A stretch of 64,000 nt of DNA, taken from Hoyosella levis (GTDB taxonomy: Bacteria; Actinomycetota; Actinomycetes; Mycobacteriales; Mycobacteriaceae). Every line of letters begins with the position of its first letter. Position 1 is the stretch's first letter. Position numbers and translations under genes: made by a program. The DNA lies in contig NZ_BQYM01000001.1 of assembly GCF_026008515.1 (NCBI RefSeq), positions 310,001-374,000 of the forward strand. Reading direction: 5' to 3'. Under the pieces are notes generated by a model. The model saw only the letters and a list, made by a program, of their open reading frames with translations. It had not been told where the DNA came from and made no database searches. Below, piece by piece: positions 10,817 to 42,297 of this stretch.

Positions 10817-10847
10817 ATCGCTCGACCCGGCTGCGGGAATCCTCGCC

Positions 10848-12939: not shown

Positions 12940-12949
12940 CGGGCCGGCG

Positions 12950-16921: not shown

Positions 16922-17083
16922 GGTGGTGGTCCTTCTCCGACGGTGCGCGGCCTCGGATGGCCGTGCTCCCACCGGTAATCTTGCGCGCTTTTCGCACGAA
17001 TAGGGAGAGTTTCCAGGTCTATTTTCCTCCGGCATCAGCTTTTTAGAGACCCACGCTTCTGCTTGGCTCGTTTTTCTCCAGGT

Positions 17084-17554
17084 CTAGCGCTGTTCGTCCA
17101 CGCGACGATGCTGCAACCACCACGCCACCGCCGTGGCAAGGAGGAGCAACAGCGCGATGGCCAGGGGCGGCGAGTAGGTGAAGGCACGCCACCAGGCAGT
17201 CAGGATGGCGATACCACCGAGTGAATAGATGGCAGCCCATGCCGCGCATCCAACGAGCATGGCGATCAGGTAGCGGACGAATCGCATGCGGGTCGCACCG
17301 GCAGTCGCATTGACGGCGGTCTGCAATCCAATGGTGAGGAAGGAGGCGGTGACAGCGGGTGGCCCGTAGCGATCGATGATGGCGCGGGAACGCTCGAGCC
17401 GCGGCTCGATGCGGGCGCCGAGACGCGTCCGGTACAGGCCCGCCCCGAGGAGCCGTCCAAGCCAATAGGTGGCCTGGGCACGGAGGAAGACGATGCCGAA
17501 CAGGGCGAGATACACCACGATGAAGGGATGCCCGGAGAGGAAGCTGTACTCCAT
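17084..17554 (-). CDS. DedA/SNARE-associated family membrane protein
   Basis: This 156-residue membrane protein has three to four hydrophobic segments and the DedA-like middle region (YWLGRLLGAGLYRTRL and RYGPPAVTASFLTIGLQTAVNATAG). It fits small DedA relatives thought to act in lipid flipping or membrane homeostasis. The start MEYSFLSGHPF at 17554 follows a GGGGAGGAG ribosome site; the longer frame from 17647 lacks one. The overlapping frame at 17043-17615 was rejected because its product is not membrane-like. A 10-base direct repeat TCCAGGTCTA occurs at 17012 and 17077, the second covering the stop codon. Confidence 0.8.
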   Translation of the reverse strand: MEYSFLSGHPFIVVYLALFGIVFLRAQATYWLGRLLGAGLYRTRLGARIEPRLERSRAIIDRYGPPAVTASFLTIGLQTAVNATAGATRMRFVRYLIAMLVGCAAWAAIYSLGGIAILTAWWRAFTYSPPLAIALLLLLATAVAWWLQHRRVDEQR

Positions 17555-17706
17555 GGGCTCCTCCCCTGGTCCGTCCGTGCCCGGCAGTCGTCCCGATACT
17601 AGTGCGCGCCGCCACCGAACGGGGACTCTCGATCCCGTACCGGGCAAGCGGTGATCCGCGCTGATAGCGTCAGCCGCAGGGTTTGTTGCTGGCCGAGGGA
17701 GGGTCC

Positions 17707-19443: not shown

Positions 19444-19478
19444 GCCCGTGGCCGACGTGGCCCGCCGCAAGGGAAGCG

Positions 19479-20852
19479 CTAGACGACCTGGAGGAGCGGC
19501 CTGGTGCCAGCGACCGAGCGCAACGGTGTTCGCGGGTCGCTGTGGGCAAAGTTGCCGAGGAAGTTGAGGAATCGTTGCAGGTGCGCGGCGATCTCCTCGT
19601 GGATGTAGAGGTGGGGGTTCGCCTCGATGTCCAGCGCCAGCTCGCCAGCGTGGTCGTAGCGCAGGGTGACGACGAGATCGTGAACGAGTCCGTCGGTGAG
19701 CGCGTGGCTTATCGCGGTGGTGCCGTCGATCGGGACGGTGGGATCGGCGAGAGCGAGATTGATCGTGGGACCGAACGCGTGGGCGTGGTCGCCGATCAGC
19801 CCGTGCTCGCGGATGATGTCATCGTTGCGGAAGCGCTGGTGCGCGATCGCTCCGGCGATGCTGTCGCGCGCCGCGCGGATGGCCTGGGCGATGCTGGTGT
19901 TCTCGTTGATGCCGGTGCGCAGCGGGACGGTGTTGCCCAGTGCGCTCGCCGATCGACGGATCGCGATCCGGGTGCGCGCGGCGACGGGCAGCGTGAGGGT
20001 GGTGTCGCGGGTTCCGGTGATGCGGCTCACGTAGCCGGCGAAGGCCGCGGTGACGATCGCGGCGACGGTGCTGCCGGAGTATTGCGCGATCTCATCGATC
20101 ATCGCGGCAGTGTCACCGGGGATCGTCGCCGACTTGCGGATGGTCGCCACCGAGGCTGGCGCGGTCGTGCCGGCGAGGCTGATGGCCTCGGTCGCGCCGT
20201 CGAGAGTGGTGGCCCAGTAGTCGCGGTCCTCGTCGTAGGCATCCGAGCCACGGTAGGCCTGGTCCTGCTCGATGAGGTCCGCGATGGGCAGGCCGCTGAA
20301 CGCTGGGACTGCCCGGTCGGCGAGCGTGGCGTTGTGCACCTGCGCGACACGACGAAGGAACAGCTGGCATGATGCCGGATCGGCGATTATGCGGTGGGCC
20401 CTCATGTACCAGATGTGCTGGCCTGGCCCGATCGCGAGCAGCGCGGTGTCGAGGAGCGGGCCGTTGAGAATGTCGACCGGGGTGGAGCGGTGGAGGCACA
20501 TCCAGTCCTGGGCCGCGCCCGCGGGATCGTCCTCGCCGGTGAGGTCTACGACGGCCAGGCCTGCGCCGCGCGGGGCGCTCGTGGTCCCCTGATAGGGCCA
20601 GCCGTCATGCTCGACGATGCGCGTGCTGGTGAATCCGAGCTCGTGGGCGGCCCGGTCGACGGAGCGTGCCAGGAGGGCGATGTCGAGCGGCCCGTCGATG
20701 GTGACGTAGCGGGTGAGGCAATCGGGGACGCTGGGGCTCATGCGTTGCACGAACCATGCGTTGGCTTGCGATGCCGTGAGCGGGATGCCATGGCCGCCCC
20801 GGGGTGCGGGCTTCTCGTCGCGCGTGCTGCCTTTCACACTGTGACTATCCAT
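19479..20852 (-). CDS. Free-standing condensation-like protein with degenerate active site
   Basis: This 457-residue protein is a single NRPS-type condensation (C) domain without A or T partners. Its N-terminal half aligns by eye with the first C domain of the NRPS encoded nearby (IPLTASQANAWFVQRMSPSVP against [31 protein letters not shown] against MHHVTIDG). The catalytic HHxxxDG motif is changed to HRIIADP: the second His is Arg and the final Gly is Pro. Normal condensation chemistry is therefore doubtful. It may be a structural or carrier-binding partner, or catalyse something else. The start at 20852 has a G-rich ribosome site; a longer frame begins at 20954. It is divergent from the PHA-synthase-like gene. 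Confidence 0.88.
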   Translation of the reverse strand: MDSHSVKGSTRDEKPAPRGGHGIPLTASQANAWFVQRMSPSVPDCLTRYVTIDGPLDIALLARSVDRAAHELGFTSTRIVEHDGWPYQGTTSAPRGAGLAVVDLTGEDDPAGAAQDWMCLHRSTPVDILNGPLLDTALLAIGPGQHIWYMRAHRIIADPASCQLFLRRVAQVHNATLADRAVPAFSGLPIADLIEQDQAYRGSDAYDEDRDYWATTLDGATEAISLAGTTAPASVATIRKSATIPGDTAAMIDEIAQYSGSTVAAIVTAAFAGYVSRITGTRDTTLTLPVAARTRIAIRRSASALGNTVPLRTGINENTSIAQAIRAARDSIAGAIAHQRFRNDDIIREHGLIGDHAHAFGPTINLALADPTVPIDGTTAISHALTDGLVHDLVVTLRYDHAGELALDIEANPHLYIHEEIAAHLQRFLNFLGNFAHSDPRTPLRSVAGTRPLLQVV

Positions 20853-21185
20853 CGAGCCCCCCGAAGCGTTACAGGCATACCGTCTTGTCGTCGCATTGCT
20901 GGTGATCCGTAACCAATCGTGGCGGGGATTGGTGCATCTCGTCACGTGGAGCAACCGTGCTCGTGTTTTCTACCCTAATTGATGAGGGTTTTGCTGACGA
21001 TCCGTCGATTGCATGACACTAGTTCTCGGGGCGCGGCGGCTTTGTCCGGTGTGGTGTTGTTCACCCATGGGTTACGCCACCTAAACCTACTGTGACAAAA
21101 TGCCTCATTAATAGCGGTCGCACGCTTCACGGCAACCCAGCACTGCCTTGCCACGACTTGCCTGTCCCAGAAGGAGCCCACCAGC
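20853..21185. promoter_or_regulatory. Divergent promoter region of the NRPS locus
   Basis: About 333 bp, notably more A+T-rich than the rest of the window, separates the condensation-like gene (-) from the PHA-synthase-like gene (+). It contains the 10-bp palindrome ACCCATGGGT (21063-21072) within GTTCACCCATGGGTTAC, a possible operator, and an AT-rich stretch around 21090-21112. I cannot define the start sites. Confidence 0.45.
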
Positions 21186-22388
21186 ATGAGCGCCAGCCTC
21201 GACCTCCCCGCGGCTCCCCCGGCCACCACAGCAGCCAACCAGCCACCGCGCGCCACCGCGCGCACGCTCGCGGCCCGGCTTGGAGCGCCGAGCGCGCTGG
21301 CCTCCAGGGTTCCGAGCGTCAGGGTTCCTGCCGTCAAGCTTCCCACGGCTGCGCGCAATGCCTGGAACCTCACCCTCGGCGAGGGCCTCGAGCCCTATAC
21401 GCCCACCCCGTCCCGCGTGATCGACGACGGCCCCCACCGCACGCTGCGCAAGTACGACGTGCCCGCGGACGGCAACCACGACGACCATCCCGTGCTGCTC
21501 GTGCCGCCGCTCGCGGTCGACATCTCCTGCTTCGACCTGCGCCCCGAGCAGAGCCTCGCCCAGCACCTCATCGATACCGGCCACGCGCCCTACGTCATCG
21601 ACTACGGCACCATCTCCTTCGCCGACCGCGACCTCGGGTTCGAGGAATGGATCGACGACATCATCCCCGCGGCCATCAAGCGTGTCTCCGCCGAGAATGG
21701 CGGCAAGCCGATCGATGTGGTGGCCTGGTGCCTGGGCGGAACCATGACCCTGCTCTCCGCCGCCGCGCACCCCGAGCAGCAGATCCGTTCCATCGCCACC
21801 GTCGCCACCCCCATCGATTACGCGAAGCTGCCCAACCTCGTGCCCCTGCGCACGGCTGCCCGCTTCACCGGCGGACGATTCACCACCTATGGCACGAAGC
21901 TGATGGGCGGCATGCCCTCTCCCTTCGTCAAGCTGACCTTCCGTGCCACCGCGTTCCAGCGGGAACTGAAGAAGCCGTGGTTCATCGCCCGCAATCTCGG
22001 CAATACCGAGACACTCGCGCGGATGGAATCCATCGAGCGCTTCATGGGACAGATGCCTGGCTACCCCGGGCGGCTCTACCTGCAGCTGTGGCAGCGCATC
22101 ATGCTGCGCAATGATCTCGCCAAGGGGCAGCTCATCCTCGGCGATCGGCGCATCGACCTCGGACGGGTGAACAAGCCGGTTCTCGCGATCGCCGGCACCG
22201 GGGATGCCATCACGTCGGTTCCCGCTGCCCGCCACCTCGGCACGGTCCTCACCGGTTCCCCCGGGGTGCGCTTCGAGACCGCGCCAGGCAGCCATCTCGG
22301 TGTGCTGGCGGGGCCCGGAGCGCCCGAGCACACCTGGCCGCACATCGATGCGTTCCTCGCCGAGCAGCAGGCTGCGGCCAACGCGTAG
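21186..22388 (+). CDS. PHA-synthase-like alpha/beta hydrolase with Cys nucleophile
   Basis: This 400-residue protein resembles class III PhaC-type enzymes. The nucleophile elbow is VVAWCLGGT, with Cys182 in the GxCxGG-like site. The other likely triad residues are Asp340 (IAGTGDAITSVP) and His370 (PGSHLGVLAG). VLLVPPLAVDISCFDLRPEQSL matches the PhaC region ahead of the active site. True PHA synthases join hydroxyacyl-CoA units. In this location an acyl transfer or release step on the NRPS product is an alternative, and the evidence is context only. AGAAGGAG precedes the ATG. Its stop TAG abuts the NRPS stop on the other strand with no base between. Confidence 0.88.
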   Translation: MSASLDLPAAPPATTAANQPPRATARTLAARLGAPSALASRVPSVRVPAVKLPTAARNAWNLTLGEGLEPYTPTPSRVIDDGPHRTLRKYDVPADGNHDDHPVLLVPPLAVDISCFDLRPEQSLAQHLIDTGHAPYVIDYGTISFADRDLGFEEWIDDIIPAAIKRVSAENGGKPIDVVAWCLGGTMTLLSAAAHPEQQIRSIATVATPIDYAKLPNLVPLRTAARFTGGRFTTYGTKLMGGMPSPFVKLTFRATAFQRELKKPWFIARNLGNTETLARMESIERFMGQMPGYPGRLYLQLWQRIMLRNDLAKGQLILGDRRIDLGRVNKPVLAIAGTGDAITSVPAARHLGTVLTGSPGVRFETAPGSHLGVLAGPGAPEHTWPHIDAFLAEQQAAANA

Positions 22389-25300
22389 CTAGCCGGTCCC
22401 TCGCTCCGCCAGCTCGATCCTGCCGCTGGAGCCGAGGCGGGCGCCGAGCCCGAGGCGGATCAAGCGACCACCAGGGCTAGTGGCGTGCGGGTCCGCGACC
22501 AGGGTGGCGGCGGTGCTCCCGGCTCCGGAGACGAGATGGCTAGCGAGGCCAGCATCGCAGGCGTATAGCTGTCCGGCAGTGGCGGGCGCGAGCTGCTCGT
22601 CGAGTATGCGCAGGGTGATGCCTGGTGCTGGCTCGATGCCGCGCGCGTCACCGTGCAGCAGGATTCCAGCAAGATCCGGGCCCGTGGCGTCGATGAGGGC
22701 GTCGTCGAGGTCGATGGTCGAGCCCATGGAGAGCGCCTGGATGATCGCCATCTGTCCGGCCGGAGCGCTTCCGGGCCCGGTGAGCAGCGCGGCGCCAAGC
22801 TGGGTGAGGGCGATCGATTCGCCACCGTGGGGCACGATGATCGCTGGGGTCGTCTCGCGCAGGGGATGCGGACGGTCGTAGAAGGTGACCGGGCTCGCGG
22901 GTTGCTGCTTGATCTGTGTCGCGGTCGCCGCATCGCCGAGCAGGATCCATTCGGTCGCCTCGGATCCAGCCGTGCTGTCCTCGTCGAGGCCGATACCGAG
23001 GTCGGACCGCGTGGTCGCGGCGGGTGTTCCTTCGGTCATCACGATCGTCGCGCCAGTCTTGACCACGGCGAGCAGCGCGACGACCAGCTCCAGGGACGGG
23101 GGCACTGCCACCCGCACTGTGGTGCCGGCCCGGGCACCGCGGCCAAGGAGCAGCCGGGCGAGGCGCGATGACCTGCGATCGAGGTTGCGGAACGTGAGCT
23201 CGGAGTCGTTGCGGCGGGCGGCGATGGCAGTCGGACCATTCTCGATGGCCGCCTCGATGGCTTGCAGGAGCGTAGCGGGCGCGCCTGCCACCGCCTCGCC
23301 CTCGATCCGTTCCGGGGAGAGCACCGGCGCCGCGTCGGCCACCCCATCCTCGTGCCCGGCCAGCGCGATGTCGCCCACCGTCGTCCCTGGACTGGTAACG
23401 AGCGTCTCGAGGATGGTGGCGTACCAGGCGGCGATGCGCCGGACAGTCTTCTCCTCGAAGAGGTCCCGTCGATACGTGATGCTGCCGCTCAACCTGTTCT
23501 CGTCCTCGACGATGCCAAAGGTGAGGTCGGTCTTGGCGACGTGCAGGCCGTGGTCGAGCGCCGCGATCTCGAGCCCGGCGAACGTGGCCGTGCCTGGCCG
23601 GGCGCGGTCGACCGAGAGCAGCACCTGGTAGACGGGGCTGTGGGTGATCGGGCGGCGCGGCATCACGGCGTCCACGATCGCCTCGAATGGCACGTCCGCG
23701 TGCGAGTAGGCGGCAATATCGGCACGCCGTGCCTGGCTGATCACTTCCGCCGCGGTGGCGGTGGGGTCGATAAGGGTGCGCAGCGGGAGGGTGTTGACGA
23801 ACATCCCCACGAGGTCAGCCAGCGCTGGGTCGCTTCGCCCCGCCGTGGGGGTGCCCACGACGATGTCGCTGCTACCGGTGATGCGGGCGAGCAGCACGGC
23901 CAGTGCCGCGTGCAGCACCATGAACGTGGTGGTTCCGGTTTCCCGCGCAGTCGCCGCGAGTCCCTTCTCGAGGCCCGGGGCCAGTGGCAGGTCCACGGCA
24001 CCGCCATCCGCCGCGGGAATGGCCGGCCGGGGCTTGTCGAGCGGCAGATCGAGCACATCGGGTGTCCCGGCGAGAGCGCGCCGCCAGAACGTGATCTGCT
24101 CGGACCACAACGAGCCCGGATCGCGCGGGTCGCCAAGCAGGTCATGCTGCCAGGCCGCGTAGTCGAGGTAGCTGATCGGTAGTGGCTCCCAGCCAGGTTC
24201 GGTGCCAGCGGCGCGGGCGGCATAGGCGGAGATCATGTCACGCACCAGCGGCGGGATCGATTCGCCATCGGCGGCGATGTGATGCACCACCAGCGCGAGG
24301 ATGTGCTCGTTGGTGCCGGTGCTGATCACCTCGATCCGGATGGGCGCTTCGGAGGTGACGTCGAAACCCCGGCCAACGAGGCCGAGGAGACCGTCGGTGG
24401 CGTCTGCGGGAGCGAGCGAGAGCTCGGTGAGCACGGTGGCGCTCACCGCCTGGGTGTCGAGGACGCGCTGGTACGGTTCCCCGGCCTCGCTCGGGAAGAT
24501 GGTGCGCAGCATGAGGTGGCGCTCGAGGATGTCCTTGACCGCAGCTCTCAGGGCTGCACGGTCGAGGGTGCCGCGCAGGCGCAGGGCGACCGGGATGTTG
24601 TAGGTCGCGAGCGCAGGGTCCCACCGGTTGAGGATGTGCATGCGTTCCTGAGCCGGGGAGAGCGGCGGATGCGCTGGATGAACGCGGGGCGCGAGCGGCG
24701 GTCGTGCCGGGCCGGTGGCTCGCTCGTCGAGGATGCTGGCAAGCCCCGCGATGGTGGGCTGCTCGAAGATGTCCTGGGCGCGCAGGGTGGTACCGGTAGC
24801 GGCGCTGGCGCGGGCGACGACCTTCAGCGCGGTGAGCGAGTGTCCGCCGAGCTCGAAGAAGGAGACATCGGTGCTGGCGTTCTCGATTCCGAGGACGTCG
24901 ACGAAGATGCCGGCGAGCAGTTCCTCCGTACCGGTCGCCGGAGCCACGATGCTGCCCGTGGAGGGCCGTGCTGCGGGCGCGGGCAGTGCCCGGCGGTCGA
25001 TCTTGCCGCTCGCGGAGAGCGGGAACTCCGGCAGCGCGATGATGTGGGCGGGGATCATGTAGTCGGGCAGCGTGCTGGCCAGCGCGGCTCGTGCCGTGCG
25101 GGGGAAGTCCTCGTCGAGCGAGCTGGTGGCGGCGTAGGCGATGAGCTGGTCGCCCTCGGCGACGACGAGTGCCTGGTTGACGGTGCCGAGCGCGAGGAGA
25201 GCCGCCTCGATCTCGCCGAGCTCGATGCGCAGGCCACGGATCTTGACCTGGAAATCGGTGCGCCCTAGGTAGTCGAGGGCACCGTCGGAGCGCCAGCGCA

Positions 25301-28300
25301 CGAGGTCACCGGTGCGGTACAGCCGTCCCCCCGCCGCGAAGGGATCCGCGACGAATCGCTGCGCGGTCAGCCCGGGCAGGTTGCCGTACCCGCGAGCCAC
25401 GGGCAGCCCGCCGATGTAGAGCTCACCAGGCAGTCCGGGCGGGACCGGGCGCAGCCAGTCGTCGAGCACATGCAGGCGGGCGTTCGCGATCGGGGTACCG
25501 ATCGGGGCCGGATCGATGTCGGGGCCGACAGTCCAGCGCGCGACGATGTCGGAGGCCTCGGTGGGCCCGTAGCTGTTGATGATGCGCACGCCGCGGTCGA
25601 TGAGCTCGCGGACCATGTTCATGCGGATGGGCTCGCCGCCGAGGTACACGGTGCGCAGGCCCGCGAGGATGCTGTCGTTGTCGGCCTCGACGAGTGCTTC
25701 GAACGCGCTGGGGGCCATGTTCGCGAGCACGATGCCCTCGTCCGCCACCGCGCGCAGGATGCTGGCGGGGTCGAATCGCGGCTCGGCGAGGTGGAGGGTC
25801 GCCCCGAGGCACAGCGCGGACCACACCTGCTTCTGGGTGAGGTCGAAGGTCGGCGCGGACGCGACGAGCACGCCTTCCCCGGCCAGGACGTCAAGCTCGC
25901 CGAGGTACCAGTGGAGGGTGTTGAGGATGCCTCCGATCGGCACCAGGGTGGGCTTTGGCCGACCCGTGGATCCCGAGGTGGTGATGACGTATCCCAGGCG
26001 ATGGCGGGCGCCGGGATCGGTCCATCGATCAGGCAAGATGCCGGGCATCGAGCCCGGGGACATCGAGCCCGGCGGCATCGTGCCGATGGTGATGGCGCGG
26101 CCGGGTCCGATCGCTTCGCTGTGCTTCCAGCCGGGCAGGCAGGCAACGATGCTCGCGCCAGTGTCCTCAAGGATCGTGGCGATGCGGGCAGGGGGCAGGG
26201 TGGGATCCACCGGTAGGTACGCGGCCCCGGCCTTCCAGGCAGCGACCATGCCGACGATCCAGGCACGGGACCGGGGTACCGCGAGCGCCACGACATCCTC
26301 GGGGCCGATGCCCCGCTCGATCAGCTGGTGCGCGATCTGCCCGGACCAGTGTTCCAGCTCGGCATAGGTGAGGGAGCCATCGGCGGCCGCGACCGCTCGG
26401 GCCCCGGGCCGCTGGCGGGCCTGCTCGCGGATCAATGCCAGTGGCGTCGCGGGAGGAGTTGCCGTGGTGCCTGTCCCCCATTCGGCGATCTGCTCGCGCT
26501 CGCGGTCCGTGAGCAGCGGGTGGTCGCGCAGCGGGGCCGCGGGGACCGTGGTGACGTGATCGATGAGGAGGAGGAGCCGATCGACGAGCACCTCGATGGT
26601 GTGGTGATCGAACAGCTCTGCCGCGTAGGTAACGATGACCTCGCGGGGCGCATGCTCGGTCGGCTCGGTGATGGTGAACTGCAGGTCGAACTTCGCGGTC
26701 GCGCCATCGGCGTCGAGGAACTCGGCTTCGAGCCCGGCGAGCCGCAGCACTGGCACGGCTTGGTTCTGGAACGACAGCATCACCTGGAAGAGGGGCGTGT
26801 GCGCGCGGGACCGCGGCGGATCCACGGCATCGACGACCTGCTCGAACGGAACATCGGTGTGGTCGAACGCCTCGAGGTCGACGCGGCGCGCCTCCGCGAG
26901 CAAGTCCTCGAAGGATTGGCCGCCATCGACGCGCAGGCGCAGCACGAGCGTATTGACGAACATGCCGACGAGGTCGTCGAGCGCGGCCTCGCCCCGTCCG
27001 GCGATGGGGGTGCCGATGGCGATATCGGTAGTGCCGGATTGCGTGGACAGCAGCGCGGCGAGCACGGCGTGCATTGCCATGAACGGCGTCGCGCGGTGCT
27101 CGCGCGCGAGGCTGTTGAGGCGTTCGATGGCTTCCGCGGGAAGGGGCGCGCGGTAGGTAGCGCCGCGCGTGCCCTGGCGGGCGGGTCGGGGGCGATCAGT
27201 GGGCAGCGGCAGTAGCTCGGGCAGCTCAGCGAGCTGGTCCGTCCAGTAGCCCAGCTCCGAGGCCGCGAGCGAGGCGGGATCGCTGGGGTCCCCGAGGACC
27301 AGGCGCTGCCAGATCGCGAAGTCCGCGTACTGCACGGGCAGCGGGTTCCAGCCAGGCTCGAGCCCATCGGTGCGCGCCTGGTACGCGAGCATCAGGTCAC
27401 GGGCCAGCGGCGCCATGGACGCGCCGTCCGCGGAGACATGGTGCACGGCGACGGCGAGGATGTGCTCGTCCGTGTCGCTGATGCTGATCAGCGCGGCGCG
27501 CATCGGGATAGCGGCACTGGTGTCGAAGGCTGTCGTCACGATCTCCATCGCGTGGCCATGCGCCTCGGCGGCGCTCGCGGCGGCGAGGTGCTCAAGACGT
27601 GGCGCGCGCTCGACCGGCAGGATGACCTGGATGGGCCCGTTCGGTGTGCTCGGGTAGAGGGTGCGCAGTACCTCGTGGCGCGCGAGGACGTCGTCGAGGG
27701 CAGCGCTCATGGCATCGACGTCGAGCGTGCCGCGCAACCGGATGGCCAGCGGGATGTTGTAGACGGCGTTGCCGGGGTCGATGTCGTTGAGGATGCGCAT
27801 GCGCTGCTGCGCGAGCGACAGGGGAAGCTCGGCGGGCCGATCCATGGGCGCGAGCGGAACGCGTGTTGTCGAGCCTCGCCGCCCCAGGCGAGCCGCGAGC
27901 TCGACGATGGAGGGGGCATCGAAGAGGTCGCGCACGCTGATGGCCACGCCAAGCGCATCGCTGGCCCGGGCCGCGGCCTTGGCCGCGGACAGCGAGTTGC
28001 CACCCAGGTCGAAGAAGCTGGTGGTGGTACTGATCTGGCGGGTGCCCAGCACGTCGGCGAAGACGTCGGTGAGCAGTTCCTCGGTAGGCGTGGCGGGCGA
28101 TCGATGCTCGGTGCTGGTGCTGGCGAAGTCGGGGCGCGGCAGGCGCGCGCGGTCGAGCTTGCCGTTGACGGTGACGGGCCATTCCGCGACGAGCAGGATC
28201 TGCGTGGGCACGAGGTAGGACGGGGCGCGGCGGGCAACGTGGGCGCGGACCTCGTCGATATCGATGCCGGGGCTCGTGGCGGTGATGTAGGCAATGAGGT

Positions 28301-31300
28301 GGTCACCGAGGCTCTCGTCACGGTGCACCATCGCCACGGCCGCGGTGACTCCGGGGTGGCTGGCGATAATCGCCTCGGCCTCGCCGAGCTCGATCCGCAG
28401 GCCGCGCAGCTTGACCTGGAAATCGGTGCGTCCCAGGTAGTGCAGGGCATGGTCGTGGTCCCAGCGCACGAGATCGCCGGAGCGGTACATGCGTTGCCCT
28501 GGCTTGCCGTAGGGGTTGGCGACGAACCTGGCCGAGGTCAGGTCGTGCTGGCCGAGGTAGCCGCGGGCCTCCCCCACCGAGACGATGTAGAGCTCGCCGG
28601 GGACCCCGACGGGGACCGGCCGGAGCCGCTCGTCGAGGACGAGGACCGCGTTGCCAGCGATCGGGCGCCCAATGGTGACGGGCTCGCCGGCGCGCATCGC
28701 ACCGGTGGTGGTGGTCCAGATCGTGGTCTCGGTGGGGCCGTACAAGTTGTGCATGGCCACGTGCGGGGCCCAGGTGTCGACGAGTTCTGGCGGGCATGCC
28801 TCGCCCGCGACGGCCAGCGCTCGCAGGTGCGGCAGGTCGCTGGGCAGGCCCAGCGATGCGAGCACCGAGGGGGTGAGGAACGCGTGGCTGATGCGCTGCT
28901 CGGCGAGGACCGCGGCGAGCGGCTCGCCGGCGGTGATGCTCGGCGGCACGATCACGGTAGTGGCGCTCGCGCACAATGCCATGAGCATCTCGAACACGGC
29001 TGCGTCGAAGCTGGGCGAGGCCAGGTGGGTGACTCGGGAGTCGCGGCCGACGCCAAGCAGGCGCAGTTCCTCGCGGGCCACGGTCGCGAGCCCGGCGTGG
29101 GGCACCATCACGCCCTTGGGGACGCCGGTGGAGCCCGAGGTGAAGATGACGTATGCCGCGTTGGCGGGACCGAGCGGGCCGCGTCGCTCGCGTGGCTTGA
29201 TGCGGAGGCCAGGTGCGACCGACACGCGATCTCGCGTGGTGGGGTCGTCGAGGTCGAGCTGCCGCAGGCCACCGGGCAGCGGGGCGCCACCGCTGGTGAT
29301 GCCGAGGATCGCCCCGGAACGGCGGATCATGTCCTCGGCGCGCTCGGGCGGATGGGCCGGGTCGACCGGCAGGTAGGCCGCGCCCGTCTTCGTGACCGCC
29401 CAGATGGCGGAGAGGGTGGCGAGGCCGCGGCCCGCGGAGATGGCGACAACTGTCTCGGGGCCCGCGCCCTCCTCGATCAGGATCCGGGCGAGCTGATTGG
29501 TCGAGGAGTCGATCTCGGCGTAGGTGTGGGACCGGTTCTCCGCGACGATGGCGATGTGGTCCGGGGCCCGATCGACGGCCTCGGCGAGGATCTCGGGCAG
29601 CAGGAGCGCGGGACCGGGCTCGGCGCCGCGCGCGGGGACGAGCGCTCCAGCCTCGGCTGGGCGCAGCATCTCGATGCGCGAGACGATCGTTGCCTCATGC
29701 TCGGTCACGGTCATGAGCAGCGCGATGAGTCGCTCGGCGAGCCTATCGATCGTGGCGGCATCGAACAGGTCGGTGGCATAGACGAGCCGGGCGGTGGCGC
29801 CGATGGGAGTTCCCTCCTCGCTGGCGCGTTCCTCGACGTCGACCGTCAGGTCGAACTTGGTGACGTCCACGTCGATCCCGGCGGGCTCGATGATGATGCC
29901 GGGGAGCTCGATGCGGGCCTCCCGCGCCTCGCCGACCGCGAGCGCCACCTGGAACAGCGGCGCGTGGGCGGCGGTCCGTTCGGGCGCGAGCGCTTCGACG
30001 AGCGACTCGAACGGGACATCTGCGTGGCTGAACGCGTCGAGGTCACGGTCGCGGATGTCCTGCAGGACCGTGGCGAAGCTCGCGTCGGGGTCGATCACGG
30101 CCCGCAGCACGAGGGTGTTGACGAACATGCCGACGAGCTCGTGGAGTACCTCGCTGGCGCGACCTTCGATGGCCGTGCCGATGGCGATGTCCCGCATCCC
30201 TGACATGCGCGCGAGCAGCACCGCGAGCGCCGCGTGGTACACCATGAAGGGGGTGGCGCCATGCGCCTTGGCGAGCGAATGGATGGCCTGGTGCAGGCTG
30301 GCCGGGATGGGCCTGTCGATGCGCGCGCCCGAAGCGGTGCGCTGCGCCGTGCGGGGCCGATCGGTGGGCAGCTCGAGCACGGGCGGCAGGTCGGCGAGCA
30401 CGTTCTCCCAGTGGTCGAGCTGCGCGGCCAGCCGGGTTCCTGGCCTGGCCGTGTCGCCGAGCACCTCCCGCTGCCAGAGGGCGTAGTCGATGTAGGTGAC
30501 AGGCAGGGGCTGCCAATCGGGAGGGGTGCCGCCACAGCGGGCGTTGTAGGCGGTGAGCAGGTCCCGGGCCAGCGGTGCCAGGGATGCGCCGTCGAGCGCG
30601 ATGTGGTGAGCCACGATGCCGAGCACGTGGTGGTCGTCGTCGAGGCGCCACAACGCTGCGGCGAACGGTGCCTCGGCGGCGACGTCGAAGGTCGTGGTAG
30701 CGAGCGCGATCATGTCCTGGCGCAGCGCTTCGCCGCGGGTAAGCCGGGGCTCGAGAGCGATGCGGGTGGCCTCATCGACGACCTGGACCGGCCCGTCCGG
30801 CGTGGAGGGATAGCGCGTCCGAAGCGTCGCGTGCCGCTCGACGACATCGCGCAGCGCCTGCTCGAGCGCATCGGTGTCGAGGATTCCGGTGAAGCGGATG
30901 GCGAAGGGGATGTTGTACTCGGCAGCGCCAGGGGCGTACTGGTTGAGGATCCACATCCGTGCCTGGGCGAAGGACAAGGGCGCGTGGTCAGGTCGTGGCC
31001 TGGCCTCGACGGGCGGCAGCGCCTCGGTGCCCGTTCTCGCGGCGATAGCCCGCGCTATCCCGCGCACCGTCGGCGCCGCGAAGAGATCGCGGATGGTGAC
31101 CTCGCTGCCGGTCGCCTCGCTGATCCGGCCAAGGACCCTGATCGCAGCGAGGGACGTACCGCCGAGGTCGAAGAAGCTCGTGCTCGCGCCCACCCGCGTG
31201 GTTCCGAGCACGTCGCCGATGACTCCCGCGACGAGGCGCTCGAGCTCGCCCTCGGGCTCGATGATGTCCTCGATCTCCGGTTCGAGGTCCGGGGCGGGCA

Positions 31301-34300
31301 GGGCGCGCCGGTCGACCTTGCCGTGGCTCGTGGCCGGGATCTCCTCGAGGACCATGATCGCGGCGGGAACCATGTAGTCGGGCAGGACAGAGGCTAGGCG
31401 GGCCCGGATCGATGCGGGCTCCCGAGCGGCGCTGGGCTCGTCGTCGCCGACCGTGACATGGGCGATGAGGCGGTCCCCGAGGTCGCTGTGGTGGTGCATG
31501 GTCACGACGGCCTGGGTGATGCCGCTGATGGACAGCAACGCTGCCTCTACCTCGCCCGGCTCGATGCGGATACCGTTGATCTTGACCTGGAAGTCGGACC
31601 GTCCGAGATAGACAAGCTCACCGTCGGTGCGCCAGGCCACGAGATCACCGGTGCGGTAGAGCCGGGCGCCGGGGCTGCCGAAGGGATCGGCGACGAACCG
31701 CGAGGCAGTAGTACTGGCCATCGTGCGGTAGCCGCGGCCCACCCCGATGCCACCGATATAGAGCTCGCCGGGGGTTCCCGGGGGCACGGCACGAAGGCGA
31801 TGGTCGAGGACGCGGAGCGTGGTTCCCGGGATGGGTCCGCCAATGGGGACGGGCTCGGTGCGCCGGGTGAGGACATGGGCGGAAGCGACAGCACTCGCCT
31901 CGGTCGGGCCATACCCATTGATCACGGTGGTGCCCTGCTCGAGGAGCAGGTCGAGGAATCTAGCGCGCGGCTGCTCGCCACCGAGGGCGAGCGCGCGAAG
32001 GCCAAGCAACTGGTGGTCCCGGTCTCGCTCGAGGAGGATCTCGAACGCTGTGGGTGACATGTTCGCCATGGTCGCACCGCCCGCTTCGCGCATGGCTTCG
32101 AGGATCTGTCGTGGATCGAAGCCGTGGTCCGGCAGCAGCAATGTCGCGCCCGCGGCAAGGGGTCCCCAGACGTTCTTCTGGGTCAGATCGAAGGTCGGAG
32201 GTGAGGCCACGAGCGCGATATCGGTGGGCGCGATGCGCATCGAGCTCATGTACCAGCGGACCGTGTTGGTGATGCCGGCCATGTCAACGAGGGTGGGCTT
32301 GGGCATGCCTGTGGTACCGGAGGTGGAGATGACGTAGCCAAGCCGTTGCGCTGGCAGGCTCCGCGCCGCGTGGTGGGCGTGAGCGCCTTGCGCGGGCATC
32401 GGTTCCACCCTGCCCAGGAGGCTGATGCCGATCGGTCTGCCAAGCCTCGCGACCAGTTCCGACTGGCCCCCATCGATCACCGTTGCGCGAGCGCCCATCG
32501 TGGCGAGGATCGCTTCGATGCGTTCGGCGGGGGCCTCGGGATCAATGGGCGCGTAGGCGGCGCCACGCTTCCATGCGGCAAGCATTCCAACTATCCATGC
32601 GGGCGAGCGCGGAAGCAGCAGTGCGACGATGTCGTCGGGGCCGATCCCGTGCTTGGCGAGCTCGGTGGCAAGCAGGTCGGACCGCTCGTCGAGCTCGCGG
32701 TAGGTGAGGGTGCCTGCCGGATGCCGGATCGCGAGGGCGTCTGGCTGCTCGCGGACCCGATCGCTGATGTCGTCGAGAATGCTGCGCCCGGAATCGCTTG
32801 CGGCCGGGCGGGCGAGCGCCGCGAGGGCTTGCTGCTCGACATCGAGGAGGATCGGCGCGTCACCGATCCGCGCCCCCGGCTGGTGGACGAGCTGCTCGAG
32901 GAGCTGGATGAACCGTTGCAGCATCGCGCGGGCGGTGCGCTCGGTGAAGAGGTCGGTGGCGTAGGTGATCTCGATGTCGTACCCGGCGTCTCCCGTGGCG
33001 CCGCTCATCAGGCCCTCGCTGAGGGTGAATTGCAGGTCGAACTTGGCGGTGCCGGTATCGATCGCGCGGGCAGAGACCTCGAGCTCGCCGAGCTGCACCG
33101 CCGGGATCGCGAGGTTCTGGTAGGTCAGCAGCACCTGGAACAGCGGCGCATGAGCCGCTGTCCGGGCAGGGTCGATCGCGTTCACGATCATCTCGAACGG
33201 CACATCGAGCAGGTCGAACGCTGTGGCATCGCGGGATCGCACGCTGGCGAGGTGCTCGTCGAAGGTGTGGTGCGCATCCACCTGGGTGCGCAGGACCGCC
33301 GTATTGACGAGCAGGCCGACGAGATCGTCGAGGGCCGCATCACCACGTCCGGCTACCGGGGTCCCGATAGCGATGTCGTCCTGCCCGCTGATGCGCTGGA
33401 GCAGCACGCTCAGCGCGGCGTGCACCACCATGAACGGGGTGGCTCGATGCGCCCTGGCCAGCTGCTCGATGGCGTGGTGCAGGGGCGCATCGATGGTGCC
33501 GCGGACTGTGTCGCCCGAGCCGGAGAGCGCGCTGGGGCGAGGCTTGTCGGTGGGCAGGGCCAGCGCCTCGGGAAGGTCGTCGAGGATCGCGCGCCACTGG
33601 TCGAGCTGCTGGCCGGCGAGGCTGCCCGGGTCACCGGCGTCGCCGAGCATCTCGCGCTGCCAGAGGGTGTAGTCGACGTATTGCACGGGCAGCGGCGCCC
33701 AGGACGGCCGGGAACCGGCGCGCCGCGCCTGGTAGGCGAGCATGATGTCGCGGGCGAGCGGCCGCATGGAGGAGCCATCGGCGGCGATGTGGTGGGCGAC
33801 GAGCACGAGGTGGTGGCGCTCCGGCGCCTCGCGCAGCAGCACTGCCCGCCAGGGCAGCTCGCGGGTGACGTCGAACCCTTCGGAAGCGATCGCCGCCATT
33901 CGGCTGTCGACGGTGCCGGGCTCGATGTCCTCGGGGAGCAGCCGCGGCGACGTCCCGGCGGGGTGGATGAGCTGCACCGGTCCCTCGCCCGTGTTGGGGT
34001 AGGTGGTGCGCAGCGCCTCGTGGCGGTCACTGATGTCGGAGAGCGCATGCTCGAGCGCATCGAGCTCGAGGTGCCCATCGAGGACGAGGGCGAACGCGAT
34101 GTTGTAGAGCGGCGACGTGGCATCGAGCTGGTTGAGGAACCACATGCGTTCCTGCGCGTGCGACAGCGGGATCGGGCCGGTTCGGGCGCGCGGCTCCAGG
34201 GTGGGACGGCCCGGGGCGGCGCGAGCAGGCGCCGGAGTGTCATCGATCCGCGCCGCGAGGGACTCGACGGTGGGATTGTCGAAGAGGTCCCGCACGGTGA

Positions 34301-37300
34301 TGGTGCTGCCCAGCGCGCTGTTGATCCGGGCCACGGCCATGGTGGCATTGAGCGAGTTGCCGCCGAGCTCGAGGAACGAGTCGTCGGCGCCGAGGGTGGT
34401 GGCACCGATGACATCGGCGAAGACGTCCGCGATGGCCTGCTCGGTGCCCGCGCGGGGCGGCCGGGACGGAGTGCTGTCGAGATCGGGCTCGGGCAGCCGG
34501 TCACGATCGATCTTGCCGTTGACGGTGAGCGGCACCGCCTCGAGCGGGATGATCCGCGCGGGCACCATGTGCGAGGGCAGGATCGTTGAGGCGTGCACGC
34601 GCAGCACCGCTGGGTCCACGGCGTTCGGCTCGCCAACCGCGGTGCCGGGATGCGCGGGCGTCACGTAGCTGACGAGGCGCTGCGCACCGTTCCCGGAGCG
34701 AACGGCCACAGTGATGGCGGTCGCCACGGCGGGGTGCCGCTCGAGCGCGGCGTCGATCTCCCCGAGCTCGACGCGCAGGCCGCGGATCTTGATCTGGTGG
34801 TCGCGGCGCCCGATGTAGGACAGCTCGAGGTCGCCTCCGGTGCCACGGATCCACCGCACCCGGTCGCCCGTGGAGTACAGGCGCGTGCCCGGTGCGCCGA
34901 ATGGATTGGCCACGAACGCCGCGGCGGTCAGCCCGGGCCGGGCGTGATAGCCGCGGGCGAGGCCGGGCCCGGTGATATAGAGCTCGCCGGGCACCCCGAT
35001 GGGGACGGGCCTCAGCTGGCTATCGAGGACGACGGCATCGGTGCCGCGGATGGGGCCGCCCATGGTGACGGGGTTCTCCGGCGCGAGCGGATCGGAGATC
35101 GCCACCATGATGGTGGTCTCGGTCGGGCCATAGCCGTTGTGCAGGCACCGTCCGGGCGCCCAGCGCGCGACGAGGGTGGCGGGCACGTCCTCGCCGCCCG
35201 CGCACAGGTGCGCGAGACCGGGCACCGCGCTCGGCGCCATGGTCGCGAGCACCCCTGGGGTAATGAACGCATGGGTGACATCGTGCTCGCGGATCAGCTT
35301 CTCGAGCGGCTCCCCCGCGTAGGTGTCGGGCGGGGCGACGATCAAGTGCGCGCCCGTGCCGAAGGCCAGCAGGTACTCGAGGACGGCAGCGTCGAACCCG
35401 GGCGACGAGACATGCAGCACTCGGCTGGCGGGCGAGACGCTGTAGCGCTGCTGCTGCTCATCGCGGAAGTTCGCGAGCCCGCGGTGGGTGACGGCCACGC
35501 CCTTGGGGGTCCCGGTCGAGCCCGACGTGTAGATCAGGTAGGCGCAGGAATCCGCCCTGGGCTGGCGTGGTGCCTCGCTGGCAGCGAGCGGCTCGGCGGC
35601 GCGCTGGCCGATACGGTCGCGCGTAGCGGGATCGTCGAGGACGACCCAGTCGATGGTGGCGGGCAGGCTGCTACGATGCGCGCTCGTCGTCACGCCGATC
35701 GCAGCGTCCGCATCGGCCAGCAGATGCTCGATGCGGTCCCTGGGGTAGCGGGGATCAATGGGCAGGAAAGGCAAGCCGCTCCGGGCGATGGCCCACATCG
35801 CGACGAGCGCCTCCCAGGAGCGCGGCAGGGCGATCGCGATGGGCTGCTCCACGTCGGCTCCACCGCGCGCGACCAGGAGCTCGAGGAGGTGCCGCGCGAG
35901 CTGGCTGGATGCCTGGTCGAGCTGCGCGTAGCTGTAGGACTGGCCGCCGTCGGTGACCGCGGGCGCCACGGGGTTCCGGCGCGCGGTGGCGGCGAGGATC
36001 TCGCCGAGCGGGAGGGGTACCGAAGCAGGAGGCCCCTGCACGGGCGCGAGCGCGGCCCTCTGCTCCTCCTCGAGGATGTCGGTGTCGCGCAGCAGCAGGG
36101 TCGGGTCGCTGGCGAAGGCCGCGAGCAAGCCCTTCAGGCCGTGGAGCAGAGCGCGCGCGTCGGCCTTGGTGAAGGTGGCCTGCTGGTACTTGGCGCGCAG
36201 GGTGATCCCGTCCTCGACCAGAGCGACGAGCGCGAAGGGATAGTGGGTCGCGTCGGTGACGCGAACGCCTCGGAGCCGCAGGCCCGCGAGGTCGGTGTCG
36301 GCGGTGATCCCGGCACGGTCCACGGGATACGACTCGAACACCGCGAGGGTGTCGAACTCGGCGCCGTCCCCGACTGCCGAGACGATGGCAGCGAGGTCGG
36401 TGTGGTGGTGGTCGAGCATGCGGGCCTGCTGGTCATGCACGCGGCGCAGCAGTTCGGTGATGGTGTCGGCGGGGTTGATCCGGACCCGCACCGGAACGGT
36501 ATTGATGAACAGCCCGATCGTCTGGTCGATGCCCGGCAGGTCCGTGGGGCGGCCTGAGACGGTGGCACCGAAGACGACGTCCTCGCGGTCGAGCAAGCGG
36601 GCTACGAGGAGACCCCAGGCCGCCTGGATGATCGTGTTGGTAGTGATATTGAGCGACCGCGATGTGGCCTCGATCCCCTCCACGAGCTGCGTGGGCAGAG
36701 GGACGTCGAGGTCGGCGGCCTCGCCCTCGGAGCCGCTGGCCTGGCCGAGCGGCGCGAGAAGCGTGGGCTCGGTGCTTCCCTCCAGCATTCGCGACCATTC
36801 CGCCACGGATTCCGAGCCAGGCTTGCCCTGGAGCCACTCGAGGTAGTCGCGGTAGGCCCGCCCGGGTGCCGCGCCTGCGCCAGAGGGCCCTAGGACGTAG
36901 AGGGTGAGCAGGTCGCGCACGAGCAACGGCAGTGACCAGCCATCGACCAGGATGTGGTGGCAGGTGATGATCAGCGCCTGCTCGCCGGTGCTGGCCCGCG
37001 CGAGGACGAGGCGCAGCAGAGGCGGCTCAGCGAGGTCGAACGGCGCGTGGCGCTGCTGCTCCGCGAGCTCCTCGAGCGCTTCGGGGCCCGCGAGGTCGTC
37101 GTGCTCGGACCACGGCACGGTCGTCTCATGGACGATGACCTGCCGGGGCGGAGCGCCAGTGGTGGCCGGGAAGGCGGCGCGCAAGGCAGCGTGGCGCGCG
37201 AGCAGTTGCTGCGCGGCATCGTGAAGGCGGTCCGCATCGACCGTGCCGCCGAGCTCCAGAATGATCTGGGTGGTGTACACATCGCGGGCCGGGCCGGAGA

Positions 37301-40300
37301 GCTCGGCGTGGAATCGCAGCCCGGACTGCAGCGGGGCGAGCGCAACGATGTCGTCGATGCGGCGATAGCGCCGCTCGAGGTCGTTGATCTCGTCCTGGGT
37401 GATCGAAACGAGCGACAGGTCGGACGGCGTGAGGCCCCCGGCGCCGGGGGTCGCGAGGTGCGCCGCGATGGCGCGCATCGCGTCGGTCCAGTGCGCGACG
37501 AGCCTGGCGGCGACGGTGCTGGGCAGCACATGGGTCGCATGGTCGAATCGGGCGACGAGTCGTGGTCCGTCGGGTGACTCCTCGATGTAGGCGTTGAGGT
37601 CGAGGGCTGCTGCCATGGCCATGGCAGGGTCGGCGAAGCTGTTGTGGCCCGATGCCTCCGCGGCCGGGATCCAGCCCTGCTGCCGCAGCTCGTCCGGAAT
37701 CTCGAAGGTAGTCAGTCGGCCCAGATAGTTGACGCTGGCCTGCGGCGTTGTGGAAATCCCTTCCGGCGCCTCGCCCGCAGTGCCGGGATAGCGGAGCAAG
37801 CCGTAGGTCATCCCCTTGCCCGGGATGGCAGCGATCTGCTCCTTGATGCGCTTGAGGGCATCCCCGATGGGCGGCCGCGCGGCGAGGGCGGCCTCGATAT
37901 CGATGCCACCAAGCTCGAGCCGGACCGGGAACAAGGAGGTGAACCAGCCGACTGTTCGGGAAACGTCCGCACCGGGCAGGATCGATTCCTCCCGGCCATG
38001 CCCCTCGGTGAGCACGGTGACGTCCGAAGGGGTGATCCCATGCTCTGCCCTGAGCTTGTTGATGCTGACCGCCACGGCGGTCATGATCGCCTCATTGATG
38101 CCGCCGCGGTAGGCGACAGGGAGACGCTCGAGGAGCATGGTGGTCACCTCGGGCGGCAAGCATGCCCGGATCGTCCGGGACGTGGCGACGGTGTCGCGGC
38201 GCGGGTCGAACGGCACATCGAGCAGCGGGATCCCTGCCGTGGCGAGCTGCTCCCGCCAGGTCTCCACCGTGGCTCCGGCGCGGTGTTCCTGGGCAAGCTC
38301 GGCGAGGCCGTGCGCCCAGCGGCGCAACGACGTCCCACCCCGAAGCGATGGTTCCGCGCTCACGGGCTGGGCAGCGTTGGCCCGCGAGCGCTGGGCGCCG
38401 ATCATCGCGAGGTCTGGGAGCAGGATCCGCCAGGAAACGCCGTCGATCGCGAGGTGATGGACCACGATCAGAAGCCGTCCCGCGGCCCCGGGGCAGGTGA
38501 ACCAGACGAGCTGCAGGATCACGCCCTCGAGCGGGTCGAGCCGCTGGGCCGCCGCGGCGAGCTGGGCACCGACGAGAGCATCGAACTCCTCGCTGCCTGG
38601 CGCCGCGCTCGCGACGATGTGATCGAGCAGCGGGGCGACCCTGCTCTCCCCCGGCTGGCGGATCACCAGGCGCGGGGCGCCGCCTGGGTCGACGAGGATC
38701 AGGCGCAGGGCATCATGGCGGTCGACGAGATCCTGGAAGACTTGCTCGATCTCGGTGCGGGTGGCGGACTCCGGCGTGGTGACGAGCACAGCCTGGCTGT
38801 AGCTGCTGTAGCTGCCCCGCTCGAGCATCCAATGCCCATTGGGCAGCAGTGGCGCGCTGCCCACGGGCCCGCCGGGCAGCTCCGCAAGACGAGGCTGGGA
38901 GGCGCGATCATCCCGGACGGCGACCTTGGCGAGCTCAGCGACCGTCTGGCGCTCGAACACCTGCCGGGGGGTTATGAGGTATCCGGCGTCGCGCGCCCGG
39001 GAAACGAGCTGCATGGAGATGATGCTGTCGCCACCGAGCGCGAAGAACGAGTCGTCGACGCTGGCGTCCTCGATGCCGAGGACCTGCGCCATGATGCCCG
39101 CGAGGGCCTTCTCGGCCGGCGTGCGGGGCGCGACTGCCCCGTGGCCCGTCGTGGCCGGAGCGGGGGCGGGCAGCGCGTTGCGATCGACCTTTCCGCTCGC
39201 GGTGAGCGGCATGTCGTCGAGCAGGACGATCTCATCAGGCACCATGTACAGCGGCAGCGCGGCACCGACCCAGGATTGCAGGTCCGCGACACTGGTGCCG
39301 GTGCTGGCGAGGACGGCATGGGCGATGAGCCGCTGGCCGCGATCGGTCGCTCGCACCGTTGCCACGGCATTGGTGACGTCGGGATGCGAGGCGAGAACGG
39401 CTTCGATCTCGCCGAGCTCGATGCGCTGGCCGCGGATCTTGACCTGGAAGTCGGTGCGGCCGATGTAGTCGAGCATGCCGTCGTCGCGCCACCGCACCAG
39501 ATCGCCGGTGCGGTACATGCGCGTGCCGGGCGGGCCGTGCGGCGAGGCGATGAAGCGGTCCGCGGTGAGGTCGCCGCGGCCATGGTAGCCGCGCGCGATC
39601 TGCGAGCCAGCGAGGTATAGCTCGCCGGCCGCCCCGATGGGAACCGGCTCGAGGAACCTATCCAGCACGTACGCCTGCGCGTTGGCGACGGGGGCACCGA
39701 TGGGAACGGAGCGATGTGGCATCGTGTCGATGCGCGCGGCCGTGGCATGCACCGCGAACTCAGTGGGGCCGTAGAGGTTGTGCAGGTGGGCGTTGCTGAA
39801 CTGGTGGAAGCGCGCCGCGAGGTCCGCCGGCAGCGATTCCCCGGCCGCGAGCACGAGGCGCAGCGACTGGCATTGGCAGGAATCGGCGGTGGCGACGAAT
39901 GCAGCCAGCATCGAGGGCACGAAGGACGTCGCGGTGACCGCGTGCCGCTCGATGAGCCCAGCGAGCTCCGCGGGATCACGGTGCGCGTCCGGCGGGGCCA
40001 CGATCACCGTGCCGCCGCTGAGCAGTGGCACGGTCATCTCCCACAGCGACACATCGAACGTCGGTGGCGTCTTGTGGAGGATGACGTCATCGTTGCCGAA
40101 GCCGTAGTGGTCGATCAGCCAGGCAGCTTGGTTGACGATGGCGCCGTGGCTGACCGCCACGCCCTTGGGCTTGCCCGTCGAGCCGGAGGTGAAAAGAATG
40201 TAGGCGAGCGTGCCAGGCAGGACCGGTCCGCGGAGCTCGCCGGGGCGCAGCGGGCTAGCATCGTGGCCTCGCACGCGGGCCTCGAACTCCGCATCGTCGA

Positions 40301-42068
40301 CGGCCATGACCGGCTCGGCCCGATGGGAGATGGCGGGGAGGTCCGCCTGCTCGACGAGGATGCACGTCGGCGCTGCCGAATCGAGGACGTAGTCGATCCG
40401 TTCGCGCGGATGATCCGGATCCACGGGCACGTACGCGCCGCCAGCCTTGAGGATCGCCCAGAACGACACCAGCATGGCGGCGGAACGCCGCTGGGCGACT
40501 GCCACTCGCCGCTCCGGGCCCACGCCCGCATCGATGAGCAGTCGTGCGAGCTCGGAGGATTGATGGTCGAATGCCTCGTACGTCCAGCGGGACGTGGCAT
40601 CGATCAGCGCGCTGGCGCGGGGCGATCGCTGCGCGGAGCGGGCCAGCATGCCCGGAAGAGTGGCATCGCCGGGGATGCCGAGGCGTCGCTGGTTCCAGAC
40701 CGTGAGCACGAGGGCGCGCTCGTTGTCATCGAGCAGCGGGATGGCGGTGGCCAGCGTGCCGGGGTCCGCGACGGCGAATCGGCGGAGCAGCTCCATGAAC
40801 CGGTGATAGTGGCGGTCGAGCTCCGCCGCGCTGTACCGCTCGGGGTTGGCCTCCAGATCGATGTGCGTGCGCGCCGTGCCCGAGGACGAGTACATGTTGA
40901 CGGCGAGATCATCGACCGGCCCGGTGGAGAGCACGTTGATGCGTCCCACGACGTCACCGAACCGCACATCGGGCCGGAACATCATGATGTTGACCATCGG
41001 CCCGAAGAAGCTGCGATCCGCCGCCGCTGGACCGTTGCCGCGCTGGATATCCTCGAAACGGTACTGCTGGTGCCGCAGCGCCCCGACCAGTTGCGTCTGC
41101 GTCGACTGCAGCAGCTCACCGATCGTGGTCCCGGGGCGCACGGACAACCGCAGCGGGACGATGTTGGACATCATCCCCCCGGAGGCGCGGGCCGACCGGG
41201 TGGTGCGCGCGGTGACGGGCAGGCTCAGCACGATCTCGTCCTGCCTCGTGAACTGCGCGAGGTAGGTCGCGAGCGCGGCGATGGAGAGGGGCGCGATGGA
41301 GCTGTTGAACCGTCGCGCGGATTCCTCGAGGCCTTGCTCGAGATCAGCATCGAGGGGCGCCGAGGCGATGCGGCTGACGGCGCACGCGGGGGCGGAACGC
41401 GTGGCGAGGGAAGCGGGGTCGGGCAGGTCCTCGGTGTAGGCGCGCCAGTACTCCTCGTCGCGGCGGCGCCGCGTGGATGTGGCGTAGGCGGCTTCATCCT
41501 CCTGCAGCTCCTGCAGCGAGTTGGCGGGAACGGGCTTGGCGGGCACGCCCTCGAGCAGTGCCCCGTAGATCGTGGCGGCCCGATTGAGCAGGGTGTTCGC
41601 GCCGAAGCCGTCGATGGTGACGTGATGCATCCGCGTGTACCACCAGTGACGGCCTGCCTCGACCGTCAGGAGGTACGACACCGCGAGCCGGTCATTGACG
41701 ATGTCGATCGGCGTGGAGCTATCCTGCCGCATGAACGCATGCGCTGCTGATCGCGGCTCGGGCTCGTGGGAGAAGTCGATCGGGACGATGTGGTCATTGA
41801 TCCCGGGATCCACGAGCTGGTACGGGGTTCCATCGGACTCGATGATCCTCAGGTAGCCGGAACCAAGCTCCCGGCCTGCCTGCTCGGCCGCCTGGCTCAG
41901 CAGCTCACGATCGATCGGCCCATCGAACTCGATGTACATCGCGATGTTCAGCGGCACGTCGGGATTCACCCGCTGGGCAAGCCACATCCCGTGCTGCGCC
42001 GGCGAGAGCGGAAACGCATGCGGGGGCACAGCGCCACCAGGACTGCCGCCCAGTGCTGCGTCGTTCAT
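22389..42068 (-). CDS. Six-C-domain nonribosomal peptide synthetase, no terminal T or TE
   Basis: This 6559-residue multi-domain synthetase makes a peptide from about five activated amino acids. Order: C1-A1-T1-E1, C2-A2-T2, C3-A3-T3, C4-A4-T4, C5-A5-T5, C6-decayed A. C domains keep HHxxxDG (C1 His148-Gly154; C2 near 1705; C3 2759; C4 3821; C5 4876; C6 5930). Carrier serines are Ser1015, 2572, 3639, 4692 and 5744. E1 (HHLAIDG near 1203, EGHGREE, NYLGR) implies that residue 1 becomes D, and C2 looks DCL-type. Hand-aligned codes: A1 DVWSLALVH, A2 DALFCGGIM, A3 DLKNAGGAV, A4 DAFFAALIW, A5 DLKNYGSDI; substrates not assigned. The start at 42068 has AAGGAG; 42110 is also in frame. No MbtH gene is visible. 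Confidence 0.97.
22392..23330 (-). other. Vestigial adenylation domain at the NRPS C-terminus
   Basis: The last 313 or so residues of the NRPS (about 6247-6559) retain outer A-domain blocks. These are [38 protein letters not shown] (core A2), [30 protein letters not shown] (A5/A6 region) and [20 protein letters not shown], where YRTGD (A7) should be. The P-loop A3 (TSGSTG), the substrate-binding A4/A5 (YGPTE), the A7 Asp and everything from A8 on are missing. It stays in frame to a normal stop, so it is a decayed but still translated domain that cannot activate an amino acid. Confidence 0.85.
37700..38970 (-). other. Epimerization domain of NRPS module 1
   Basis: This part of the NRPS, directly after carrier Ser1015, has the E-domain signatures [32 protein letters not shown] and NYLGRL. 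It converts the first carrier-bound residue from L to D. No other module has an E domain, so only residue 1 is predicted to be D. Boundaries are approximate. Confidence 0.85.
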
Positions 42069-42297
42069 GCGGCTCCTTATCGCTGCCCCGGCCTTGCCAC
42101 CATTGTCCACGCCTAGCGGAGCGATGGCCGCTGGCCAGGCTCTGGGGGCAACCGCCGCGTACCCGCGCGGACTGTGACCACCAGCACTCCATGCATGTAC
42201 GTTACAACTACTTCACACTATGTCTGTTAAGTGGCAGGGATACTGTAGCTATCACCGCGCGGGCGCTAGCCACGGTGCCCGGCACGCCGTCATCCTG
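42069..42297. promoter_or_regulatory. Divergent region, NRPS / DUF202 gene
   Basis: It holds the NRPS promoter (-), with the ribosome site AAGGAG at about 42072-42077 on the minus strand, and the promoter of the DUF202-HNH pair (+). The segment 42190-42260 is A+T-richer than its surroundings and is the likeliest promoter position. No clear operator was seen. Confidence 0.4.

Follow-up and report, generated by a model that had tools for sequence, protein, structure and literature searches.

A nonribosomal peptide synthetase of Hoyosella levis ending in a degenerate adenylation core, the probable first subunit of an assembly line split within module 6

The synthetase gene and its surroundings

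The window analysed here, a stretch of 64,000 nucleotides from contig NZ_BQYM01000001.1 of Hoyosella levis, carries on its minus strand a nonribosomal peptide synthetase (NRPS) gene that is a single open reading frame with one stop codon, spanning 22389..42110 and encoding 6573 amino acids. Analysis with Pfam and HMM profiles gave the layout Cstarter-A-T-E-C-A-T-C-A-T-C-A-T-C-A-T-C-A*, in which A* stands for a degenerate adenylation core. The first condensation domain, C1 (40719..42023, minus strand), is of the EntF/MxcG-like starter type and falls in a separate starter clade in the C-domain tree; the product is therefore probably N-acylated. The E domain of the HMM layout follows T1 (37476..38858, minus strand). 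The final carrier domain, T5 (24711..24941, minus strand), has its serine, Ser5758, within the motif FFELGGHS. It is followed by C6 (23358..24677, minus strand), a C domain in an LCL-type position whose HHIAADG motif, at residue 5943, is intact. The residue numbers of the original prediction, Ser5744 and 5930, were about 14 too low.

C6 ends at residue 6251, leaving 322 residues of the NRPS, about 295 of which are adenylation-like. In this segment, A* (22392..23276, minus strand), the Pfam AMP-binding profile matches only the first 74 residues of the A-like stretch (profile positions 2–76 of 384), and our own A-domain HMM is matched at profile positions 5–151 and 316–378 of 496. The N-terminal part is still recognisable; the TSGSTG P-loop and the YGPTE region have been lost or changed, the A4–A5 motifs are missing and the RTGD of motif A7 reads RLGL. 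The chain terminates at the boundary between Acore and Asub, before A8. The inventory of losses given in the original prediction (TSGSTG, YGPTE, the A7 aspartate and A8–A10) is thus borne out. As in the trans-complemented inactive A domains of the albicidin type, the core motifs needed for activation are missing, and, as in the first subunit of a split-module system, the protein closes with an intact C domain and a degenerate A domain that stems from the split module. To judge from these motifs, C6 is active-looking, A* would be unable to adenylate and nothing local completes module 6.

The stop codon of the NRPS gene (22389–22391) abuts that of a convergent gene (stop at 22386–22388) for an α/β-hydrolase of the class III PhaC type (21186–22388, plus strand), which has a cysteine in its nucleophile box, WCLGG. 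Models of A, T and E domains found no match in any frame of 17000–22420, which takes in the next 5.4 kb beyond the NRPS. The reading frame, the domain profiles and this downstream search confirm the earlier description of an NRPS ending in an intact C6 and a decayed A domain, with no T or TE. A frameshift or an assembly error hiding a T-TE end was rejected on the same absence of downstream matches and on the conservation of the downstream gene.

Beyond the hydrolase gene lies that of a stand-alone condensation-like protein (19479–20954, minus strand) related to EntF/MxcG-type starter C domains. In each of the six species compared, its HHxxxDG motif is degraded, to HRxxADP or HHxxADP, and we regard it as a conserved pseudo-C protein that accompanies the PhaC-like hydrolase with or without the NRPS. 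Another stand-alone C-domain protein, of about 630 residues and with the motif HHIAVDR, is encoded at 12431–14326 of locus L216 (G000:C7), with no NRPS gene adjoining. The genome designated G046 has no NRPS at the site between the hydrolase gene and a DUF202 gene; a gene for a PhoD-like phosphatase with a Tat signal is found there instead (offset 34754–36274 in the joined loci L110/L111; G046:C1, from 170000).

AlphaFold models of C6-A* and of A* alone have pLDDT values of 75 and 76, respectively. The C6-A* model matches C-A didomains over its full length, with a relative orientation of C and A* that is unreliable, and the A* model superimposes on the A domain of SyAstC with a Z-score of 26.6 (289 residues, 2.9 Å), as a miniaturised core, a likeness that may be biased because the input alignment included intact A domains. 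A* is thus predicted to keep a shortened Acore fold.

Conservation and origin of the degenerate adenylation core

Full-length A* was also found, among the 201 family genomes searched, in two further species of this genus, with identities of 61% and 38%. In these sister species, Lolliginicoccus lacisalsi (G020) and Hoyosella rhizosphaerae (G063), A* has the same end point, C6 is intact and the same convergent hydrolase is present. Because the same remnant with the same end recurs in two other species, a chance origin is excluded. The remnant predates the split of the three species, which refutes the suggestion that it is recent. Between this strain and L. lacisalsi, the dN/dS ratio of A* is 0.28 (YN00) to 0.44 (NG86) and that of C6 is 0.085 to 0.22, with C6 and A5 near 0.1–0.26. 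These ratios point to weak purifying selection on A*, relaxed and not neutral, and, together with the shared end point, they uphold the alternative suggestion that the remnant is retained. A* nevertheless evolves faster than C6, and its persistence could be due in part to tolerance alone.

The genome to which the window belongs contains a second synthetase, on contig C9, adjoining fusA and tuf. Its first gene encodes 6743 residues in a layout identical to that of the window NRPS, with a C-A* end likewise; its second gene begins 186 bp further on with a complete A-T and has a TE at its end. This gene pair is also found in three genomes of Hoyosella proper (G050, G067 and G024); in L. lacisalsi and H. 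rhizosphaerae the contig reaches only into the beginning of the second gene. At the tuf locus where these genomes have a split pair, G046, a fourth species of the genus, has one unsplit NRPS of 11,190 residues, whose sixth module is an ordinary C-A-T. The sixth module is thus complete in this relative, as had been asked of homologous synthetases, whereas the relatives with the window-type NRPS themselves keep the C-A* end.

In the C-domain tree, C1, C3 and C5 of the window NRPS group module by module with those of the C9 first subunit, and C4 groups with its C9-type counterpart for the H. rhizosphaerae copy. C6, whose phylogeny had been proposed as a check, falls among ordinary elongation (LCL-type) C domains, within which its placement is unresolved. 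On this tree the two synthetases are largely colinear. They differ in that the C9-type NRPS has its own second subunit adjacent to it and in their binding codes, which, as read by a motif script that is not a validated predictor, diverge clearly at modules 1 and 3; the window line would therefore make a different peptide. A family of NRPSs common to all strains studied except pathogenic Mycobacterium, with an unknown product, has been reported (PMC5550956), and the C9-type NRPS of the Mycobacteriales is possibly the same family.

Placed singly in the A-domain tree, the window A* has a branch of length 9.64 and an uninformative position. Taken together, the three window-type A* sequences group with the intact module-6 A domains, these being A6 of G046 and the first A domains of the second subunits (support 100), and all seven A* sequences form one clade (support 99). 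Since degenerate sequences give long branches, BLAST was used as an added check: the best intact matches of every A*, whether window-type or C9-type, are module-6 A domains. Every A* of the window/C9 group ends at the Acore/Asub boundary. We conclude from the trees and the BLAST matches that A* is a remnant of a split module 6. The possibility that it is left over from a private sixth module, since lost, was rejected on the same grounds.

Subunit junctions and candidate second subunits

Nine A*-ending subunits other than the window-type ones are directly followed by a gene starting with an A domain; the A-T is seen in seven of these genes and contig ends cut the other two. Comparable junctions occur in other genera. 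NRPS subunits of Prescottella equi, Rhodococcus sp. OK519 and Nocardia niigatensis end in a C domain and a tail of 290–306 residues with a degenerate A domain, and the next gene, about 100–285 bp on, has a complete A-T start. At other Rhodococcus junctions (loci L141, L143, L148, L152, L154, L199 and L212), the C domain is followed by a tail of ~105 residues and the next subunit has a head of ~115 residues before its A domain. This tail and head are homologous to each other (hhalign 99.5%, E 1.6e-22), and hhalign finds both weakly similar to the first 50 residues of A domains; they are possibly an undescribed pair of docking domains. The sequences suggest that adenylation-derived segments may serve as docking elements where a C domain is parted from its A-T. 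The open-access literature searched yielded no account of a C-A*/A-T junction between subunits, which does not prove that none exists.

Next to the window-type NRPS there is no A-T-starting gene; in all three genomes carrying this NRPS, the convergent hydrolase gene is there instead, and none of the three has a second subunit linked to it. However, L. lacisalsi and H. rhizosphaerae, which have both types of first subunit, contain two second-subunit fragments each. One fragment from each, on G020:C12 and on G063:C8, are orthologous to one another (66% identity, 100/100), and no counterpart of this pair was found in G046, G024, G050 or G067. This extra second subunit is found only alongside the window-type first subunit, in two genomes, and by this co-occurrence the two fragments are the best candidates for its partner. 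Both are incomplete, the start (A-T) and the end (TE) lying beyond the contigs.

The assembly from which the window comes holds no ortholog of this pair; all of its C and A domains are accounted for, and long DNA matches are only about 65–70% identical, the level of a paralog. The sole second subunit in this genome is that on contig C9. We infer that the partner in this strain has been lost, is unassembled or has been replaced by the C9 second subunit. The idea of a separate T-TE gene elsewhere, raised with the original prediction, thus holds in part for the relatives, through their extra second-subunit fragments, but not for this genome, which offers the C9 second subunit alone.

Other parts of the genome contain further NRPS-related genes. 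A small cluster at 5301–11735 of locus L217 (G000:C14) comprises an A-T protein, a probable cytochrome P450 and a C-A-T protein; its stand-alone A-T is a conceivable donor in trans. This cluster and an A-T-C gene with an ATP-grasp-like neighbour on contig C5 look like separate systems that are still possible trans donors. Among the other TEs of the genome, two lie within other NRPSs and one looks like that of Pks13, beside FadD32. A probable type II thioesterase is encoded at contig C9:174322–174999 (locus L126), with no NRPS gene adjoining.

Interpretation of the C-A* end

Overall, we consider it probable that the window NRPS is the first subunit of a two-subunit lipopeptide assembly line in which module 6 is split as C6-A*/A-T. 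C6 and the worn A* would form the C-terminus of subunit 1, and the working A6-T6 the start of subunit 2, which would hold the later modules and the TE. Acting in trans, C6 would join the acyl-pentapeptide carried by T5 to the aminoacyl group that is bound to T6 of subunit 2, and the chain would then pass on to the TE of that subunit. A* would activate nothing; its persistence is probably due to a part in keeping the C-A core platform folded, in docking the incoming A-T, or both, and so it may be a docking scaffold. It was originally proposed that a pentapeptide leaves by an unusual route at the end of the line. That proposal is unsupported, given that in paralogous and more distant C-A* synthetases a second subunit with an A-T start comes next, and unusual release is the less likely explanation.

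Were C6 a truly terminal, releasing domain of the glidonin or rhabdopeptide type, the acyl-pentapeptide would be released onto a free amine or water or cyclised, and A* would only stabilise the fold, as in the glidonin synthetase. There, the C domain of module 13, with an inactive A* as its neighbour, loads putrescine, and A*-T lends the protein stability (PMC10587159); the lack of an own second subunit in the present assembly fits such a scheme. We nevertheless regard it as unlikely, for a subunit that starts with an A domain comes after each of nine homologous C-A* ends, the extra second subunit is present in relatives that carry this NRPS, and C6 groups with elongation C domains. Moreover, the glidonin termination module, C13-A*-T13-TE, is alike in that an inactive A* comes after a C domain close to the NRPS terminus, but the reverse in what survives: there, Acore has disappeared from A* while Asub remains, and T-TE come next, whereas in the window NRPS Acore is kept and Asub, T and TE are gone.

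The absence from this assembly of an ortholog of the G020:C12/G063:C8 pair would also be expected if the partner gene had been lost in this strain, the line were non-productive and A* and C6 were on their way out. Such orphaning seems to us decidedly improbable: all 6573 codons are open, the dN/dS ratios of C6 and A5 relative to L. lacisalsi mean that decay, if any, is very recent, and the C9 second subunit could substitute. Release of the chain in trans by the convergent Cys-nucleophile hydrolase or the stand-alone C protein was considered because each of the three genomes with this NRPS has both of them next to its end. They are, however, also side by side in G046 and three Hoyosella genomes without it, and the hydrolase family has members in 76 of the 121 genomes sampled; in none of the six species compared does the stand-alone C protein have an intact HHxxxDG. 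We therefore think release by either protein very improbable, and a role as dedicated release factor was rejected, as both occur without this NRPS.

The split line has partial precedents. In the albicidin, cystobactamid, ramoplanin and enduracidin systems, a non-functional A domain is complemented in trans by a stand-alone [A-T] protein (PMC8949500). The likeness lies in an A domain of the main line that has decayed and an amino acid supplied by the A-T of another protein; the difference is that the window A* ends its polypeptide, with no T after it, and that the A-T would head the next multimodular subunit instead of being a stand-alone didomain. In syringomycin synthesis (SyrE/SyrB1; PMC8949500), one module is likewise distributed over two proteins with A-T in trans, but SyrE, unlike the window NRPS, retains a T-TE of its own and lacks any remnant of an A domain. 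For docking by A*, kutzneride is the nearest precedent: as cited in PMC10587159, its non-functional A* is said to be necessary for the stand-alone A domain KtzN to deliver its amino acid; from that account KtzN is a lone A domain, whereas the second subunit of the split pairs described here opens with a complete A-T.

A broader reading, which we offer tentatively and think doubtful, is that degenerate adenylation cores act as docking platforms at C/A-T breaks throughout the NRPSs of the Mycobacteriales and that here the window and C9 first subunits both engage a single second subunit by means of their related A* ends, one back half thus giving two lipopeptides.

Genome-mining tools would take a gene such as this for a complete or a broken pentapeptide line. 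If the C-A*/A-T junction is real, many NRPS products of the Mycobacteriales are currently mispredicted, and the pseudo-A domain would be a docking element to set beside the COM, β-hairpin and PAX types. The junction would also offer NRPS engineers a natural break point within a module.
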